Assembly: GCA_947652605.1 (NCBI GenBank)
Contig: OX393581.1
Location: 27,522,788 to 27,586,787, forward strand
Origin: Elmis aenea
Taxonomy: Eukaryota > Arthropoda > Insecta > Coleoptera > Elmidae
Reading direction: 5' to 3'
Length of the DNA stretch: 64,000 bases
Position numbers and translations under genes: made by a program
Part shown: positions 16,427 through 55,152 of the stretch, piece after piece
Layout: the number at the start of each line of letters is the position of its first letter
Position numbering within the stretch: position 1 is the stretch's first letter
The notes under the pieces: generated by a model
The model's database searches: none
What the model was told of the DNA's origin: nothing
Seen by the model: the letters and a program-made list of their open reading frames with translations, nothing else

Positions 16427-17933
16427 CAGGGTGATTTAAATTCGAGGGCGGCCATGGGAATCTCACTTATTATAATAGCTAGAGTAAAGGTTTAAATTTG
16501 GAAAAGTTGCTAAATTTCGTGCTCAATAATCGGAAATATTTCAAACGGTATTAAAAATTTCAGGAAAATCTGGAAAATGCGATTTTTAAAAATCGTCTAT
16601 ATTGGAGTTTAAAATATTTTAAATGTATAAAAACATCGCTTAAGCTACTTTTTAAGCCGCACGGACGGTGGTCACAAATTTTTCCTAGATCGATTCGTTT
16701 TTGTTTTATGACAACCAATTTTATTTTTTCTTATGGGCGCAATTTTTGCCATTTACATAATCAAATAGCATTTTATTTTCTGAATCCATTGATGTATTAC
16801 ACATGGTATTTTACTTCTTCATTCAATGTCAAATTTGAAAAAATGCATTTTAAACAACAACCACGATAAATCAGATAAGCCGGTCATTGTAGTTTATGTT
16901 GGTTCCATAACAACCAATCAACAAACTGAAAGTTTCGGAAGTCTCTTACGTGTCACATTAATAAATTCGTAAAAATGAACTTTAATAAGGAAGAAAAACG
17001 CGATATGCTGCGAATTTTTTGTACCGTTCTTTTGTTTTGTTATACTTTATCACATGCTTTATACAAATTTACTTATAATTCTGTTTAATGTAGTGTTTTT
17101 TCGGGATATGTTTGTCATAAAAATGTTTTTTTTACTTTCATCTAAAACCTTTCTGCCATATTATCTTCTGGGTTTGGCAAAAGCCAATATTTCCCTAAGT
17201 ATTTGTCCAACGTACAAAAATATGTGTGCGAAGGTTGTCTTCTTTCTGGATATGTTTCTGCATATCGTTAACTTGACAATTGACAATTCCTATTATATGA
17301 ATACAAAATTCGCAGCATATCGCGTTTTTCTTCCTTATTAAAGTTCATTTTTACAAATTTATTAATGTGACAAGTAAAAGGCTTGCACAATTTTCAGTTT
17401 GTTGATTGGTTGTCATGGAAACAACATAAACTACAATGACCGGTCTACCTGATTTATAAATGGTTATTGCTTACAACCTTTTTCTTTTAATTTGGCAGTG
17501 AATAAAGAGGTAAAATACCATGTGTGATACATCAATGGATTCGGAAAAATAAATGCTATTTGATTATGTTAATAGCAAAAATTGCGCCCATAAGAATAAT
17601 TAAGTTGGTTGTCATAAAACAAAAACGAATCGATCTAGAATAAATTAGTGATTACTATCCGATGCGGCTTAAAAAGTTGCTTAAGCAATGTTTTTACACA
17701 TTTGAAATATTTTATACTTCAAAGAAGTTTTAAACTATTTTCAAAAATCGTATTTTCTGGTTTTTCCTACTTTTCTCGGATACGGTTTGAGATTTTTCCA
17801 ATTTCTCTTCGAACTATTAATGAGCACAAAATTTAGCAGCTCTGCCAAATTTAAACATATACTCTAGCAGCTAGAGTCTAGCTAATATAATAAGCGAGAT
17901 CCCCATGGTCGCCCTCGAATTTGAATCACCCTG
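16427..17933. mobile_element. Foldback mariner derivative H with duplicated transposase 5' end
   Basis: TA-CAGGGTGATTTAAATTCGAGG on the left is mirrored by a right end closing in GAATCACCCTG-TA. The arms are about 590 bp (16427-17015 and about 17320-17933) with a spacer of about 300 bp. Both arms contain the start of a mariner-like transposase (MNFNKEEKRDMLRI), at 16975 on the plus strand and at 17348 on the minus strand. The element therefore looks like an inverted duplication of the 5' terminal part of an autonomous transposon. Confidence 0.8.
17130..17348 (-). pseudogene. N-terminal remnant of a mariner-like transposase
   Basis: Reading from the ATG at 17348 gives MNFNKEEKRDMLRILYSYNR, then after an in-frame stop a segment containing YAETYPERRQPSHTYF. 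The second block matches the YAE-x-YPDR-x-x-P helix-turn-helix region near the N-terminus of IS630/Tc1/mariner-type transposases. A related N-terminus is at 51866 (MFTNEEKQEMYDVY). The catalytic domain is missing, so it is inactive. The 95-codon plus-strand frame at 17054-17341 is its antisense shadow. Confidence 0.65.
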
Positions 17934-18958: not shown

Positions 18959-18969
18959 TCTTCTATATA

Positions 18970-19217
18970 TGTAAAATGGAAAATATTCAGAGTCTGGTTT
19001 AACGGATTTTATTAAATTCTAAAAGAATAATAAACATGTAATTATGTATGTAAGTACAAATGAAATAACAGAATTACATACCTAAAAGAATAATTAAATT
19101 ACACGTTAATAAATGTGAATTATGAACTATTAAAAATGACACAAAATAAATAATAACAAAATCTAGTAAACGTCACCAAGTCAACGGTTACTAGAGATGT
19201 AGAAATAATAATTTACA
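18970..19217 (-). repeat. 3' LTR of the gypsy-type element
   Basis: 248 bp, TG...CA bounded, apparently identical to 23803-24050. Confidence 0.9.
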
Positions 19218-19229
19218 CCTCCCCCCTTC
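19218..19229 (-). other. Polypurine tract
   Basis: On the sense (minus) strand GAAGGGGGGAGG lies immediately before the 3' LTR, the expected plus-strand primer site. It starts 11 bases beyond the stop codon of the Gag-Pol-like frame. Confidence 0.85.
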
Positions 19230-19240
19230 AAGAGACTTTC

Positions 19241-22200
19241 TCACCTGAGAAAGGTGACAACTTGGTAGCGTGAAAATAGTTGGACTCCTTTTTCCGTTTT
19301 CCAGTGTCCATAAATTAAATTCGAGATTCTGTTTAGGATTTTGAAAGGTCCCATCCGCACTTTGTCTGTCTTCTTCCTATTTGATCTGTTGCCATTTTCC
19401 ACGTAGACTTCATCTCTGACATTAAATACATGGTCTTTGTGATGTCTATCTATTGTTTCCTTATTTATTTTAAAACTGCTCATTGAGTTTAAAAATGCTG
19501 CTTCCCTGTCTTTATCGAGGTCTCCTTCTTGTATTAAGTTGATTGTAGAAATAAGCGATCGTTTTCCAAAAAGCAAGTACTCAGATTCAAATTTGGTAGA
19601 GCTATGTACCGTTCTGTTATACTCCTTTACGCAATCTTCTGCTACACAAGACCAAGCTCGCATGTCTCCGCCATTTATCTTACATCTGATTCTGTTAACT
19701 AAAGTCTGGTTTACCAGTTCATTCAGTCCATTTGACTGCAGACAGTCTACAGACCTAAATATTAATTTAATATTCATCTTATTTAAATGGTTTTTAAGTG
19801 TTTGAGAATTCAATCCAGTGTACTGATCCGCTAATAAGGTCTTTATTATTTTCGTTGCTGCTATAGGATGAATCAGTTTAATGAAGTCTTCAGCTGTCTG
19901 GCCCACTGTAGTCGAAATCCAGACATATCTTGTAAAATGTTCAATTAAAATGTGCATGTACCGTTTTGGAGATCGGTTTCCACCAAAATCACCAACGGAA
20001 TCTATAGACATGATCTCGTATGGTTTCTCAGGCGGACCTAGTTTGGACATCAAACCAATAGACCAGCCTTTTCGTGTCTTATTCTCTTTACATATTGAAC
20101 AGCATTGGCAATATTCATTTATTAACTTATCTAAGTTCTTAAAATAATAAATTGGTCTAATTTTATCTATAATTTGTGCAGCACCAATGTGTCCATAAAA
20201 ATCATGTACTTGTTTAACTATTTTTTTACCAAACGGAACTAAAACAAATATTCTAGATCTACCTTTTAACTTCTTAAAGACAATATTTTGACGTCTTTCG
20301 ACGTTCTTAGCAGAATTCAGCTCCTGTCTGTTTTCTTTTTGATCAGTTATCATTTCTTTCAACTCGATTAAATTTACTACTTGAAAAGCATCTTCATTTT
20401 TAAAATACTCCAAAACTGGCTGTCTCGAGAGTAAATCAGCTAAAACGTTGTCTTTACCTTTCTTATAAATAATTTTAAAATTAAACTGAGACAGGTAGTA
20501 TACTAAATCTCCCAATAACTCATCCGTTCTTGATTTAGTTTTGAGACTTTCAAGAGGTTTATGGTCGCTGCATACGATGAACTCTCGGCCGATCAAGTAG
20601 TACTGCCAATACTTGATAGCATCTTTAATGGCTTTACATTCAAGGTGAATTATATCCATTTTCTTCTCCTTTGCGGACAACCTTCTTGAAAAATAGGCAA
20701 CTAGATGCCGCATACCATCCATTTGGGGCTGCTTAAGAGTAGCTCCAATACCAGTAAAACTGGCATCTGTTTCAATAAATATGTCTTTCTCTTGATCATA
20801 AATCGCCAAAATTTGAGATGAACACAAATATTCTTTTATAAAATTAAAACTTTGTTCACATGCATCAGTCCATTTAAAATCTACATTCTTTCGCAACAAA
20901 TTATGTAAAGGTTCAAATTTTTCTGCACTGTTTTCTATATATTTAAAAAAATAATTAATCGAACCTAATACACTTCGGACACCTGATTTGTCTTTTGGTC
21001 TCTGCAGATTTTTAATTGCAATCAAATTTTCATTCGCTGGTGATATTTTATTTTCCTGAATAAAATGTCCAAGATACTTAATAGATTTTGCAGCGAAAGT
21101 AAATTTTTCTAATTTTAGTTTAAAACCTTCTTCTTTCATTGTAATATCAGTTTCTGTAGTATCCCCTTCCATGTTATCATTATCATCCTTTTCTAATGAA
21201 CTAGGACTGCCTTCGTCTGACATATTCTCCTTTCTTCTTCCTACTAAATCATCATCTACATTTTTGACATCTACAACCTGAAGCAAATCTTCTGTGTCCA
21301 TTCCTCGATCTTTCACCATGTCTTGTGTTTTCGATAAAGTCTGTTCTTTCGTATCATCCGTAGGATGTTCATTTTTATCTACATTTTCAGTCTTTTCTAT
21401 CTGAGTATCACTAACATTTTTCTGGCAATCAACAGTATCATCAGCATTGGTAGTTTCACATTCAGCACTCTCCTCAGAACTTATTGCTGTATCTGTGTTT
21501 TTAACTGGAGACTTATTGTTACAATTTTTTTCAGCATTTGTACAGTCAAATTCATCAAGAAGTTTAGCTTCCAATTGTTCATCTATATTGTCTTTTGAAA
21601 ACATATCCATGTCGTCAATTTTTATCATTTCATCTTCTTTGTCAACAGACAATTCACTAGATTCATTACTTTCTACTGATAAATCTGTTTTACAATTTTT
21701 TATTACATCCTTATCCAGAGAATTCTTGCTTTTAATTTCATCATTGATTATTTTATCATTAGGTACTTGAACAGTTTCACCTGAACAATTATCAGTAATA
21801 TTTGTTGGTTTACTACTACATTTTACTAAATTAACATCTGAGTCATCAACATTATTTAAACTTTTACAATTGCTATCTGAAGAAGGATTGGTTTCATTGT
21901 TCTTACAATTCTTTTCACTGCATTTACTTTCTTGCAATGCATCTTTGTGTTCACTAATACCTTTTTCTGGTGATTTTATTTCGTTTCCAGATGGAAACGA
22001 ACATTTATAAGCTCTAGAAGTACCGTATTCATCTTTTAATAATTTGATCTCAGCTGCTCTTGCTTTTACATTTCCCACATCAAATTTATCCTGAGCAAAA
22101 ATATGTTTATATTTTGCTAGCAGTTTATATTTTTCTCTTCTCTTTTTTACATCTTCAATATGATTCACCTTTTTATTAAAAGCTTTCTCATCTGTAAGTT

Positions 22201-23767
22201 CATTCAAATTGATCGAACTAACTTCTGTATTTTCTTTGTCAATTCTTTGCAACACCTGCAATTTTTCGTCTTGAATTAATCTAAATTTTGTAATAGAGTC
22301 AAGGCCTAGTAATAAATCATAAGAGAAATCATCGTTCTTAACAACGTAAGTATTTAAATTGTTTGTTATGTTTCCAATCTTCAGCATCAAATTTGCCCGG
22401 ACAGAACAGAAATTCAACCCATTTATCGTCTTGAAAGCATTCTTATGTTTTATTAATTTTGAATTCAAAATGTCCACAATTCTTTTATTTATCAAACTGA
22501 CATTCGAACCACTATCGTAGACTGCTTTAACAATAATCTTGTTATCGATAAGAACGTTTATTTTTATCAATGGGTTTAATTTTTCCGGCTTTTCTAGTTT
22601 AAAGAATTTGGTCTTAATTTTCATCATGTTGTCAGATTCTTCTTTATTATTATCCTCAACAGTATTTAAATTAACTTGTTTCCTTGTCGTGTATAAAGTT
22701 TTGTTCGCGCACTCCATTGTAGGGTGATAGCGATTTGGCCATCCTAATGCTTCGCACATGAAACATGGTCTCTTCAGTGTGTCTACAGGATGTTTCCTTT
22801 GTTCTTCATACCTAAACTTCTGTTTCTCTGACTTCTTGTTTGTATTTTGAATTGACGTTATCTCTTTCTTCATTTTTCCAAATGAATCATCTAATTTCCT
22901 TAACTGTGTAAACAATTTTTCAGTCGTGACAGTCTCTTCTTTATCTATTTCATCTTGGACTTCTATAGGTAGACCTACCACGATCATATTGATTCGTGAC
23001 GATATAGTACTTGTACTCTCTGCTTCTAGGCAAAGTTTCTCCTTGGCTAACGCATAATCAATTAAAGAACCTCCTAAATACTTGTAACTGTACGCCTTTC
23101 GAATCTTAGACCAGCCTTTATCTACAAACACATTCAAGAAAGAATACCTCCAAACAGACCAGTTTGATAAACCAAGCTTTGTCATGTTAGCTTCATACCA
23201 ATCTGAGGCTGGTCCTTCAACAAAAAATCGAAGTGCTTCTACCATTTTTGTATCATTATTCACTTGATGTCGAGCACATTCAGTTTCAAATCTATCTAAC
23301 CACTGAATAGGATTTTGCTTTTTATCAAATTTATTTAAAACAAACTTCTTCTCAACATCATGGATCTTTATTTCATTTAAATTCAATTTACTTTCCAGCT
23401 CTTTTATTTTCCTAATTAAAAAAATTTCATCTTCAGAGGTACATGAATTAGTAGACTCATTTAATTCTTCTAATGGACAATTTTTAAAACAAATGTTATC
23501 ATCGCTATCGAAGTATTCTTTCTTCAGATCATCATCAAGTTTTATTCCTACCTTGCGATATCCATTTATTGGTCTGATGGTAAGAATAGTACTTCGAATC
23601 GTTGATTTAGTCAGCAATACCTTGTGATTGTTCAAGTTTTGATGCTTCTCAGGCAACACATACCACAGTTCTTTGTTTTCAGATAATCCTGCCAACTCAT
23701 AGTCTTCTTCACCTCTTTTAATAATGTGAGCAAACAACTTGGCCTCCTCTTTATTTCGGGGATCCAT
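19241..23767 (-). CDS. Gag-Pol-like polyprotein, RT fingers/palm replaced by an acidic region (1508 aa)
   Basis: Start: the first ATG is at 23767 (MDPRNKEEAKLF); a longer reading begins only with TTG at 23782, so residues below count from the ATG. Gag-like part about 140-300 (WLDRFETECARHQ, GPASDWYEA). Zinc knuckle 335-353 (C-x2-C-x9-H-x4-C). Aspartic protease at about 400-430 with DSG at 418. Residues 540-592 match the lead-in to gypsy RT (LAKYKHIFAQDKFDVG, YKCSFP). Then, in place of the fingers and palm with its YxDD motif, comes an Asp/Glu/Ser/Asn/Lys-rich stretch with scattered Cys, about 593-880. Homology resumes with the RT thumb (KYLGHFI at 897), RNase H 980-1115 with D (ETDAS), E (HLECKA), D (CSDHKPL) and D (DNVLADLLSR) present, integrase zinc finger 1188-1226 (H, H, CSIC) and DDE core (SIDSVG, LLADQ, SNGLNE; 35 residues between the second D and E). 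A GPF motif lies near 1473. It should be a capsid, protease and integrase source unable to copy its own RNA. Confidence 0.9.
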   Translation of the reverse strand: MDPRNKEEAKLFAHIIKRGEEDYELAGLSENKELWYVLPEKHQNLNNHKVLLTKSTIRSTILTIRPINGYRKVGIKLDDDLKKEYFDSDDNICFKNCPLEELNESTNSCTSEDEIFLIRKIKELESKLNLNEIKIHDVEKKFVLNKFDKKQNPIQWLDRFETECARHQVNNDTKMVEALRFFVEGPASDWYEANMTKLGLSNWSVWRYSFLNVFVDKGWSKIRKAYSYKYLGGSLIDYALAKEKLCLEAESTSTISSRINMIVVGLPIEVQDEIDKEETVTTEKLFTQLRKLDDSFGKMKKEITSIQNTNKKSEKQKFRYEEQRKHPVDTLKRPCFMCEALGWPNRYHPTMECANKTLYTTRKQVNLNTVEDNNKEESDNMMKIKTKFFKLEKPEKLNPLIKINVLIDNKIIVKAVYDSGSNVSLINKRIVDILNSKLIKHKNAFKTINGLNFCSVRANLMLKIGNITNNLNTYVVKNDDFSYDLLLGLDSITKFRLIQDEKLQVLQRIDKENTEVSSINLNELTDEKAFNKKVNHIEDVKKRREKYKLLAKYKHIFAQDKFDVGNVKARAAEIKLLKDEYGTSRAYKCSFPSGNEIKSPEKGISEHKDALQESKCSEKNCKNNETNPSSDSNCKSLNNVDDSDVNLVKCSSKPTNITDNCSGETVQVPNDKIINDEIKSKNSLDKDVIKNCKTDLSVESNESSELSVDKEDEMIKIDDMDMFSKDNIDEQLEAKLLDEFDCTNAEKNCNNKSPVKNTDTAISSEESAECETTNADDTVDCQKNVSDTQIEKTENVDKNEHPTDDTKEQTLSKTQDMVKDRGMDTEDLLQVVDVKNVDDDLVGRRKENMSDEGSPSSLEKDDNDNMEGDTTETDITMKEEGFKLKLEKFTFAAKSIKYLGHFIQENKISPANENLIAIKNLQRPKDKSGVRSVLGSINYFFKYIENSAEKFEPLHNLLRKNVDFKWTDACEQSFNFIKEYLCSSQILAIYDQEKDIFIETDASFTGIGATLKQPQMDGMRHLVAYFSRRLSAKEKKMDIIHLECKAIKDAIKYWQYYLIGREFIVCSDHKPLESLKTKSRTDELLGDLVYYLSQFNFKIIYKKGKDNVLADLLSRQPVLEYFKNEDAFQVVNLIELKEMITDQKENRQELNSAKNVERRQNIVFKKLKGRSRIFVLVPFGKKIVKQVHDFYGHIGAAQIIDKIRPIYYFKNLDKLINEYCQCCSICKENKTRKGWSIGLMSKLGPPEKPYEIMSIDSVGDFGGNRSPKRYMHILIEHFTRYVWISTTVGQTAEDFIKLIHPIAATKIIKTLLADQYTGLNSQTLKNHLNKMNIKLIFRSVDCLQSNGLNELVNQTLVNRIRCKINGGDMRAWSCVAEDCVKEYNRTVHSSTKFESEYLLFGKRSLISTINLIQEGDLDKDREAAFLNSMSSFKINKETIDRHHKDHVFNVRDEVYVENGNRSNRKKTDKVRMGPFKILNRISNLIYGHWKTEKGVQLFSRYQVVTFLR

Positions 23768-23802
23768 TTTTTTATTCAGCAAATAATAATTGTAATTTAA
23801 TT

Positions 23803-24050
23803 TGTAAAATGGAAAATATTCAGAGTCTGGTTTAACGGATTTTATTAAATTCTAAAAGAATAATAAACATGTAATTATGTATGTAAGTACAAATGAAATA
23901 ACAGAATTACATACCTAAAAGAATAATTAAATTACACGTTAATAAATGTGAATTATGAACTATTAAAAATGACACAAAATAAATAATAACAAAATCTAGT
24001 AAACGTCACCAAGTCAACGGTTACTAGAGATGTAGAAATAATAATTTACA
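23803..24050 (-). repeat. 5' LTR of the gypsy-type element
   Basis: 248 bp. Only 35 bases separate it from the ATG of the reading frame, and no TGG-initiated tRNA primer-binding site follows it directly. Confidence 0.9.
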
Positions 24051-24054
24051 TATA

Positions 24055-24722
24055 CAGGGTGTAGACTCGGATCACGCAACATAGCAATTTCAATGGTAAA
24101 ATTTTAAAAGTCGAATTCTTGCTCCGCTAATTATTTTAGAAAAAAAGTGCAAATACGTTTTTTGTAGAGAAAAAAATTCTGTATCCATAAATGTAATCAA
24201 TATTACTTTTTCGTTTTCCAAAAACAGAAAAATAAGCAAATTAAAAAACGCGTTTTCGCGAAAATCTGTAGTGCCTTGGAATTATGCTACGACAACTGCC
24301 CATCTTACTAACACTTACTGTCACTTTGACGTTTGAAGTTTATTCTTAATTATCATTTTTATTATCTCTTGCAATGAAAACATAACTAATTGTGTAAAAT
24401 AAATGTTTGATAAAATATAAAGTATAATTAAGAATGAATTTCGCGTCAAAATGACAGTATAAGTGACATTAGGCTGGGCAGTTGTCACAGCATAATTCCA
24501 AGGCACTACAGATTTTAGCGAAAACGCGTTTTTTAATTTGCTTAATTTTCAGTTATTGGAAAACGAAAAAGTAATATTGATTACATTTATGGATACAGAA
24601 TTTTTTTCTCTACAAAAAACGTATTTGCACTTTTTTTCTAAAATAATTAGCGGAGCAAGAATTCGACTTTTAAAATTTTACCATTGAAATCGCTATGTTG
24701 CGTGATCCGAGTCTACACCCTG
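24055..24722. mobile_element. Foldback element K (668 bp), TA-CAGGGTGTAGACTCGG tips
   Basis: The arms mirror each other for about 270 bp: CAGGGTGTAGACTCGGATCA against TGATCCGAGTCTACACCCTG, then GAATTCTTGCTCCGCTAATT and CAAATACGTTTTTTGTAGAG with their complements. A spacer of about 130 bp lies at the centre. TA lies on both sides. It sits in the TA-rich 5' tip of the Helitron-like element. The minus-strand frame 24321-24506 only reflects the arm sequence. Confidence 0.85.
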
Positions 24723-25234
24723 TATATAAAAGAGCTTGTTTGTGTGTTTGTTTGTTTGTTCGCTATAGAATCCTAGGTCCGTTGACCGATCGGGACCAAA
24801 TTTTGCACAGTTACTATTTAGGACCTTGCAGATCTAACGCCAAACTTTAAGTACAAGCACATATTACCAATTTAAAAAAAAAAAATTACTTGGACGGGAT
24901 TCGATCTTACGTCGGCAAAAACATGGTCAAAACACGATACGGCGCGGTGTATTTCTCAAGTAAAGATTGTTTTGTATACAATTAGTAATAAATGTACATG
25001 AAGTATTATTTTTATTAGTACATTTAAAATTGAAACAAGACGAAAGAAAATAAATTTGAGTTATTATTCAATTTTTAAGCAATAAATAGTTATTTTTTAA
25101 TGAATTATAAGAAAATGGAAAGATGATTGATCAGAGTATGTCATTTGTGTATGATTTGGAATTATTGGGCTTATTCAAGTTAAAAAAGTAATTAAAATTG
25201 TAATCGCCCGTGCAACGCCGGGTAAATCATCTTG

Positions 25235-27146: not shown

Positions 27147-28022
27147 CAGCGTCATTCAAAAAGTCTGCAAGAAATAGAAATTTTTTTTATTATTAATTTC
27201 TCAAAAAAATTTATTCCTGATAAAAGTTGGTGCATGGTCTAAAATTAATTTAAGGGGAAAAAAAGTTTGATAAAAAGTCATAGAACACTAGATTTTACCG
27301 ATTTTTGAAATATTTGCAAGTGTAAAGAGCCCTTAGTTTAAGAGTTACAATAAAAATGTACTTATGAGAAAAAGTTATGTAGAATCCAAAAATAAGTCTA
27401 GATTTAAATTTTTACGGTAAAATTCAATTTTTATTTTTTAAGAAATTTTAACATTCAAAAAGTCTGCAACAAATGGAAAAGTTTTTTATTATCGATTTTT
27501 CTGAAAATTTTATTCCTAATGAAGTTGGTATATGGTCTAAATCTAATTTTAAGATGAAAAAAAATTAATAAAAAGTCATATGACACTAGATTTTAATGGT
27601 TTTTGATTTTTTAAATGTTAAAATTTCTTAAAAAATAAAAATTAGAATTTAACCCTCAGAATTTAAACCTAGTTCGGTTTTTAGATTCTTAATAACTTTT
27701 TTCGATAAAAATAAAATTTTCCATTTGTTGCAGACTTTTTGAATGTTAAAATTTCTTAAAAAATAAAAATTGAAATTTGACCGTCAAAATTTAAATCTAG
27801 CCTTATTTTGGGATTTTTAAAAACTCTGTCCATAATTTTCTTTGTATCTCTTAAAATATTTTAAAAATCACTAATATCTAGTGTCATATGATTTTTTATT
27901 GAACTTTTTTCATCTTAAAATTAGTTTTAGACCATGCACCAACTTTTATCAAGAATACAATTTTCTGAGAAAAAAATAATAAAAAACTTTTCCATTCGTT
28001 GCAGACTTTTTGAATGACGCTG
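27147..28022. mobile_element. Foldback family N, copy 1 (876 bp)
   Basis: TA-CAGCGTCATTCAAAAAGTC on the left, GACTTTTTGAATGACGCTG-TA on the right. The motif CATTCAAAAAGTCTGCAAC appears again inside at about 27452, with its complement at about 27727, so the element has an inner inverted pair as well. Other copies: 59437-59940 and 61645-62659. No coding content. Confidence 0.8.
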
Positions 28023-54664: not shown

Positions 54665-55080
54665 GATAGTATTATGAACAGCTAATCCCACTCAACATTT
54701 CTAATCTAATATTAAACAATTAAACAATTAAGAGAATTAAAAAAAAAGAAAAATTAAATTTTTTTCTTAAAAAACCAGATATATTAAAAAACGAATAACG
54801 TTTCATTACTAGTTAACTATTAAAAATATTTATTTAACAATAAAATAAATAACTAACTAACTCTTATTTCATTCCGGTTAACTATCTCAAAAATGTCCAT
54901 TTAATAAACCCTGATACACAAGGTACGAAAAATCAATTCTTCTTATAAACAATTGAATTTTCAAAATATTTAAATTTTTAATCACTTTACTAATAAACTA
55001 TAATTTTAAAATTTTTTTCTATCTAAATAACAAAACAAAAAAATCATTTAATTAAAACAAATAAAAATAAATTAAAAAAT
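54665..55080 (-). pseudogene. Nuclear copy of mitochondrial 16S rRNA (5' part)
   Basis: In rRNA sense the stretch contains TACCTTGTGTATCAGGGTTT, GAGATAGTTAACCGGAATG, GTAATGAAACGTTATTCG and GTGGGATTAGCTG, which correspond to conserved blocks of insect 16S. It runs up to the hAT right border. Only the part nearer the rRNA 5' end is certain; whether 16S sequence resumes left of the hAT (before 51188) could not be judged. Confidence 0.75.
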
Positions 55081-55083
55081 TCA

Positions 55084-55152
55084 AATTAAATTGAATTGCA
55101 CAATTAATTTTTTAATGTAAATAAAAAAACTTTCTAACAAGCTCTAATCTGA
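55084..55152 (-). pseudogene. Nuclear copy of mitochondrial tRNA-Val
   Basis: In gene sense it contains TTTACATT around the anticodon TAC (complement AATGTAAA at about 55114) and TGCAATTC at the T arm. It lies exactly between 16S and 12S, as in insect mtDNA, where tRNA-Val separates them on the same strand. Confidence 0.65.

Follow-up and report, generated by a model that had tools for sequence, protein, structure and literature searches.

The window analysed here, a 64,000-nucleotide stretch of Elmis aenea DNA, contains a long Gag-Pol frame in which the fingers and palm of the reverse transcriptase (RT) are missing and an acidic stretch stands in their place. This raises the question of where the stretch comes from, how it entered the frame, and how an element that has lost its polymerase core could still have spread. 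The frame belongs to a complete LTR element of 5081 bp on the minus strand (window 18970-24050), which is delimited by an LTR pair and a target site duplication (TSD). The features of the element are as follows, with the basis of each in brackets.

18970..24050, minus strand: complete LTR element, 5081 bp (LTR pair and TSD)
23803..24050, minus strand: 5' LTR, 248 bp, TGTAAA...TTTTACA (0 mismatches against the 3' LTR)
18970..19217, minus strand: 3' LTR, 248 bp (LTR comparison)
24051..24054, no strand: TSD TATA, 5' side (flanks read)
18966..18969, no strand: TSD TATA, 3' side (flanks read)
19218..19229, minus strand: polypurine tract GAAGGGGGGAGG, just before the 3' LTR (read from the sequence)
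19241..23767, minus strand: single Gag-Pol frame, 1508 codons plus stop (ORF translation)
22709..22765, minus strand: Gag motif, which we take to be CCHC-like, from residue 363 of 1536 (position computed)
22502..22519, minus strand: protease active site YDSGSN (Pfam and motif position)
21140..21973, minus strand: captured part of a windei/ATF7IP exon, 834 bp encoding 278 residues (DNA match)
20432..21136 (end approximate), minus strand: RT thumb/connection remnant and RNase H (PF17919/PF17917)
19757..20227, minus strand: integrase H2C2 and DDE core (PF17921; PF00665 below the cut-off)

The frame holds 1508 sense codons without an internal stop (stop-to-stop length, 1536 residues), and the preliminary description of it as one uninterrupted reading frame is borne out. 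The residues named there for the protease (DSG, D446 of the 1536-residue frame), RNase H (D-E-D-D) and integrase (DD35E: D1284, D1342 and E1378, the last two spaced by 35 residues) are all located, and these are presumably the catalytic ones. In the Pfam search, RT_RNaseH_2, RT_RNaseH and Integrase_H2C2 are matched above the cut-off and the protease and rve domains only below it, and neither RVT_1 nor a chromodomain is reported in the frame. The retained order of protease, thumb, RNase H and integrase fits a Ty3/gypsy LTR retrotransposon, as do the LTRs, the TSD and the polypurine tract; the RT palm with YxDD that marks an autonomous Ty3/gypsy element is not found. The element is in all likelihood a non-autonomous, Ty3/gypsy-type derivative whose product is unable to polymerise. 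With its 1508-codon frame it is protein-coding and, as had been proposed, unlike the coding-free LARD and TRIM elements.

The insertion of the element lies at the border of an inverted repeat (24050-24727) with 268-nt arms that are 96% complementary. Nested inverted repeats of 41-153 nt are also present at 16602-17722 and 27153-28000. Elsewhere in the window, ARAGORN predicts a tRNA-Val(tac) (55080-55152, minus strand), and a 268-residue open frame with PF13843 and PF13842 (44862-45668, minus strand) represents a transposase remnant, which we assume to be of the piggyBac type.

The extent of the RT loss is apparent from a comparison with relatives. Ty3 homology picks up again at residue 905 of 1536, in the RT thumb, which agrees with the original reading that the fingers and palm are absent. 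A query consisting of the RNase H-integrase part matches 256 proteins, and PF00078 is present on all 120 relatives listed. Across the fingers and palm, 119 of these 120 have 168-173 residues from one anchor to the other (in the remaining one the anchor is misplaced) compared with 285 in the window element, and an xxDD motif is present in 119 of the 120. In total, 163 residues of the RT fingers and palm are out, and 278 residues are in.

The RT-bearing sister element for which a search had been suggested is present in the genome as one broken fragment (L028, C3:27726247 onward). Between flanks shared with the window element, this fragment carries an ordinary RT segment of 163 residues with FIDD, and RVT_1 is matched with E=4.6e-36. 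The left flank is 93.0% identical to the window copy (13 mismatches and 1 gap opening in 199), with a match that extends 8 bases beyond the junction; the right flank is 97.1% identical (6/207 mismatches) and the sequence further right 96.9% (45 mismatches and 3 gap openings in 1598), so that the two are approximately 97% identical over RNase H-integrase. The fragment is damaged in that it starts within pol and is interrupted by other DNA, and it differs from the window copy by one stop and a few small indels. Its palm DNA is found in the assembly at one place at 100% and at eight others at 71%.

The foreign part, which had been placed at residues 590-880, is measured at window 21140-21973; in the 1508-codon protein this corresponds to residues 599-876, in near agreement with that estimate. 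In the 516-Mb assembly the stretch is found at four places, all such place counts from the assembly DNA search being lower bounds: three element copies (the window, C5:51392670 and C6:12277961) and one host locus that is not an element (C2:43659860-43660704). At the latter, the match sits within a 461-residue open frame that extends past both captured ends. The DNA identity between the foreign part and this host exon is 97.2% (811/834 bp), which places the donor of the domain in the same genome and confirms the suggestion that it is host-derived.

The host gene is predicted to have five exons; at 4/4 joins the splice sites are GT-AG and the phases match. Its predicted protein of 987 residues is acidic (pI 4.88). 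The captured part corresponds to residues 75-352 and lies within one exon, on which no Pfam domain is found above the cut-off. The coiled coil, assigned through homology and not by a predictor, begins at approximately residue 540, and an FNIII domain begins at approximately residue 895, its exon matching PF16794 with E=1.3e-35. Of 7990 proteins scored against residues 500-987, 458 match at E<=0.01. The four top matches are from fireflies (47-51%), a pattern that on its own would suggest an elateroid beetle as the host. PF16794 is present on all 120 homologues listed, and many of those that carry a name are labelled windei or activating transcription factor 7-interacting protein. Because the PF16794 match, the named homologues and the splice sites at the four joins agree, the donor is identified, on sequence grounds, as the windei/ATF7IP orthologue.

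Windei/ATF7IP is a cofactor of the H3K9 methyltransferase SETDB1/Eggless. Drosophila Windei, which the title of its report terms an essential cofactor of the H3K9 methyltransferase Eggless, is described there as acidic (pI 4.55), with a central coiled coil and a C-terminal FNIII domain, and a fragment holding the coiled coil suffices for Eggless binding (PMC2730569). In contrast to Windei/ATF7IP, the element contains only the acidic part, from the interval between the N-terminus and the coiled coil, and has neither the coiled coil nor the FNIII domain. The captured part is predicted to be disordered by charge and hydropathy (H 0.367 versus a boundary of 0.464), and the disorder suspected earlier is thus supported by composition. 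When the captured region was searched within the whole frame against 5.8 billion proteins, nothing was obtained for it at E<=1 (1639 candidates).

The element copies all switch sequence at the same two points, and the host exon runs on. Firefly Windei N-termini align with the first host exon (P0003, E=3e-9), and host residues 292-539, which include the last portion of the captured stretch, match Photinus at 4e-6. By BLAST, the captured part alone matches the 120 listed Windei homologues weakly (best E 0.006). Two patterns, picked after the sequences were seen, were sought upstream of the coiled coil, or in the first half of the protein where the coiled coil was unrecognised: [DE]TE[DEHNQ]LL occurs in 6/120 listed homologues against a shuffled mean of 0.3, and [LI]E.[KR]LL.[DE] in 5/120 against 0.05. 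Firefly and click-beetle Windei carry an acidic region and the short motifs at the corresponding place. A transfer from the element to the host is rejected, since the host exon extends beyond both captured ends and the firefly and click-beetle proteins hold the region in place. Transfer from host to element appears by far the simpler direction.

Copies with the same junctions, for which a search had also been suggested, are found at three loci in total, on two chromosome-scale contigs (C5 and C6) and within unrelated flanks. The window copy has LTRs with 0/248 mismatches and the TSD TATA; a second copy, L025, has the TSD TGTA at its outer ends and flanks that differ from those of the window copy, and no TSD is visible at the ends of the third, L026. 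Between the window copy and each of the others, the difference is approximately 1.2% (43 mismatches in 3758; 36 in 2951). The copies are closer to each other than to the donor, which indicates that the copying came after the capture. Since new insertions with TSDs arose after the loss of RT, we infer that the RT-less derivative moved again after capture with RT supplied from elsewhere in trans, and the source of this RT would be the parent subfamily or the relatives at 71%.

A search of the assembly with the LTR gives 21 matches. Eight further LTR loci, inspected over short stretches, look solo, partial or rearranged, and the two of these with both ends visible have the TSDs TATA and CCTA, as read by eye. 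L025 (C5:51391685-51395591) is truncated in pol and fused to an inverted partial LTR, and it looks like an aberrant cDNA that was integrated. Additionally, L029 (C1:56738004-56739334) is a mini-derivative in which the 5' LTR and a partial gag are joined straight to the 3' LTR.

The manner in which the element is primed bears on its possible helpers, and two further features are relevant here.

23791..23802, minus strand: probable self-priming site, the first 12 nt past the 5' LTR (complementary at every base to LTR positions 115-126)
23925..23936, minus strand: LTR stretch able to pair with 23791-23802 and presumed to be the primer, at the 5' end of R (complementarity)

A 12-nt complement of this kind is held by 3/5000 shuffled LTRs, and of the 4573 internal 12-mers, the one directly after the LTR is the only one complementary to the LTR. 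A similar complement of 10-12 nt, taken as the best over a small range of end positions, is present in 4/8 relatives examined, namely those with a fitting LTR pair (L031, L033, L034 and L035); in L032 and L038 the repeat found was judged not to be the LTR of the element, and no LTR pair was obtained for L036 and L037. Inspection by eye after the 5' LTR reveals no classic tRNA primer site. As the post-LTR 12-mer complements the LTR interior and four relatives have a similar pair, self-priming of the Tf1/sushi type rather than a tRNA primer is suggested, and possible helper families may share the priming signal.

That the helper was the 71% RT-bearing family and not the lost parent subfamily is possible but on balance unlikely. 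Four of these relatives have LTR pairs that are 98.4-99.6% identical, a purine tract and the similar complementary pair, and the L031 LTR aligns with the window LTR and has similar ends. However, the proteins are approximately 37-73% identical over the matched stretches, with gag mostly at 44-47%, so that cross-packaging is uncertain.

The junctions indicate how the parent and donor sequences may have been joined. At the 3' junction, a 7-nt match, CAATGGA, is common to the parent and the donor at the switch point. All three copies read CAATGAA, and this is one later change. At the 5' junction, parent GAAATAAAAACCCAG and donor CAAATTAAATCACCAG join in the element as GAAATAAAATCACCAG, with three strictly shared nucleotides within an imperfect near match. 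Ahead of the donor part, L025 and L026 read PDEKEIK, the parent reads PDKKEIK and the window copy reads PSGNEIK. The changes at window 21983-21991 (SGN before EIK, where L025 and L026 have DEK) are clustered in three codons and occur in the window copy alone. The divergence of the window copy is 2.8% from both the donor (23/834) and the parent (45/1598), which is expected if one event joined the two.

The donor, the parent fragment, the junctions, the orientation, the frame and the later insertions (two with TSDs) are directly observed in the assembly, and from these we infer a capture at the RNA level during reverse transcription. Most probably, reverse transcription switched template twice, exchanging the RT core for windei mRNA sequence, and the derivative later transposed with RT in trans. 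During minus-strand synthesis on an RT-bearing parent, probably self-priming, the enzyme would have come off the RNA of the element at CAATGGA, a short match immediately upstream of the part encoding the RT thumb. It would then have copied 834 nt of co-packaged, sense windei mRNA and rejoined the RNA of the element at AAATnAAA, where the second match is imperfect. In the outcome, 278 residues of Windei, acidic and disordered, would stand in frame where 163 fingers/palm residues had been, giving a product that retains Gag, protease, RNase H, integrase, the LTRs and the polypurine tract and does not polymerise. Template switching is favoured because the sense orientation, the frame, the microhomology and the equal divergence agree, and patch insertions of host sequence at fortuitous microhomology are described for retroviruses in a review (PMC4997597). 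Several observations weigh against this explanation: the three shared nucleotides at the 5' junction, the single broken parent fragment, the lack of a visible TSD in L026, the weak BLAST result for the captured part alone, and an excess of synonymous divergence towards the host (11/152 sites, compared with 10.5/~358 towards the parent), for which we can offer no explanation beyond small numbers.

The main rival to template switching is a DNA-level patch, in which a genomic parent broken in RT received windei DNA through microhomology-mediated repair and was then transcribed and mobilised. Because no exon boundary falls inside the fragment, intron loss offers no means of telling an mRNA donor from a DNA donor, and the microhomology is equally compatible with end joining. 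However, the sense orientation and the maintenance of frame on both sides would be coincidences in such a repair, whereas they are simple under template switching between two sense RNAs, and the DNA-level swap is considered quite unlikely.

A further question is whether the Windei piece serves the element. The captured 834 bp has no stop or indel in 3/3 copies; the changes unique to the element are 6 synonymous and 12 non-synonymous, and dN/dS among the copies is 0.35-0.66 on 12-15 changes per pair. Elsewhere in the frame, dN/dS between copies is 0.42-3.43 for gag-protease (10 pairs) and 0.24-0.92 for RNase H-integrase (9 pairs, all <1), with few changes in either case. For the 46 changes over 2628 shared bp, the probability that no stop arises by chance is 0.07. 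These copy comparisons could not demonstrate selection on the captured part, and the changes among the copies appear near neutral, with weak constraint possible.

A similarly low probability is given to an adaptive capture. In that case the windei piece would serve the element either through its protein, as bait, or through its RNA, as a hostage: small RNAs directed at the element would also target windei mRNA, and H3K9me3 silencing would be weakened. Such a capture would account for a sense fragment of 834 bp with 97.2% identity to an exon of a silencing cofactor, for the open frame that spans the captured part in all three copies, and for the excess of captured-domain copies (3) over the RT-bearing parent (1). 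However, the Egg/SETDB1-binding coiled coil and the FNIII domain were left uncaptured, and both the dN/dS values, with so few changes per pair, and the 0.07 chance of stop absence speak against it. The more specific proposal that small-RNA attack on the element lowers windei and thereby lets the RT-less derivative outnumber its parent is a shade less probable still. The Windei piece is regarded as mainly a passenger, for which a function is possible but unsupported. An assembly chimera, a doubt raised with the preliminary description, has a negligible probability and is contradicted by the junctions shared at three separate loci on C5 and C6 with different flanks, a recurrence beyond what chance or a join made in assembly would give.

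At this locus, an LTR retrotransposon of an animal has captured part of a host gene, and the event is young and can still be traced: the donor, a parent fragment, the product and both junctions are all present in the same genome. On this evidence, an element whose polymerase catalysis is lost, but whose remaining Pol stays in one frame, is still able to spread. Because the captured gene belongs to an element-silencing pathway, the effect of the capture on silencing is directly testable; if the hostage proposal were true, silencing the element would become costly to the silencing pathway itself. A literature search, with most subscription journals outside its coverage, returned no precedent for the capture of windei/ATF7IP, for an in-frame RT-core replacement in an insect, or for a silencing-cofactor fragment standing in place of an RT core.

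Compared with known systems, the element resembles the self-priming Ty3/gypsy elements of the Tf1/sushi type in its post-LTR complement of the LTR interior and in its single Gag-Pol frame, which is the layout of Tf1. It differs from them in that it is without RT and without a Pfam chromodomain, and its self-priming is presumed from complementarity. The gag-onc fusions of acute transforming retroviruses provide another comparison. Capture of host genes by LTR elements is already known from Bs1 and crocodilian ERVs. In acute transforming retroviruses, and in crocodilian ERVs with KIT-ligand or nectin3, host mRNA was likewise captured, which sometimes costs the element a gene (PMC4299795, PMC4997597). 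The crocodilian captures described there either sit between pol and env as an ORF of their own or take the place of env (PMC4299795), whereas the capture in the window element is internal to Pol and removes polymerase catalysis. Bs1 of maize is similarly an LTR element with host gene fragments in a chimeric frame, but it is a plant element and contains pieces of three other host genes (PMC13317346, PMC7264820). In the window element, by contrast, one fragment of a silencing cofactor replaces exactly the RT core, and RNase H and integrase stay in frame.
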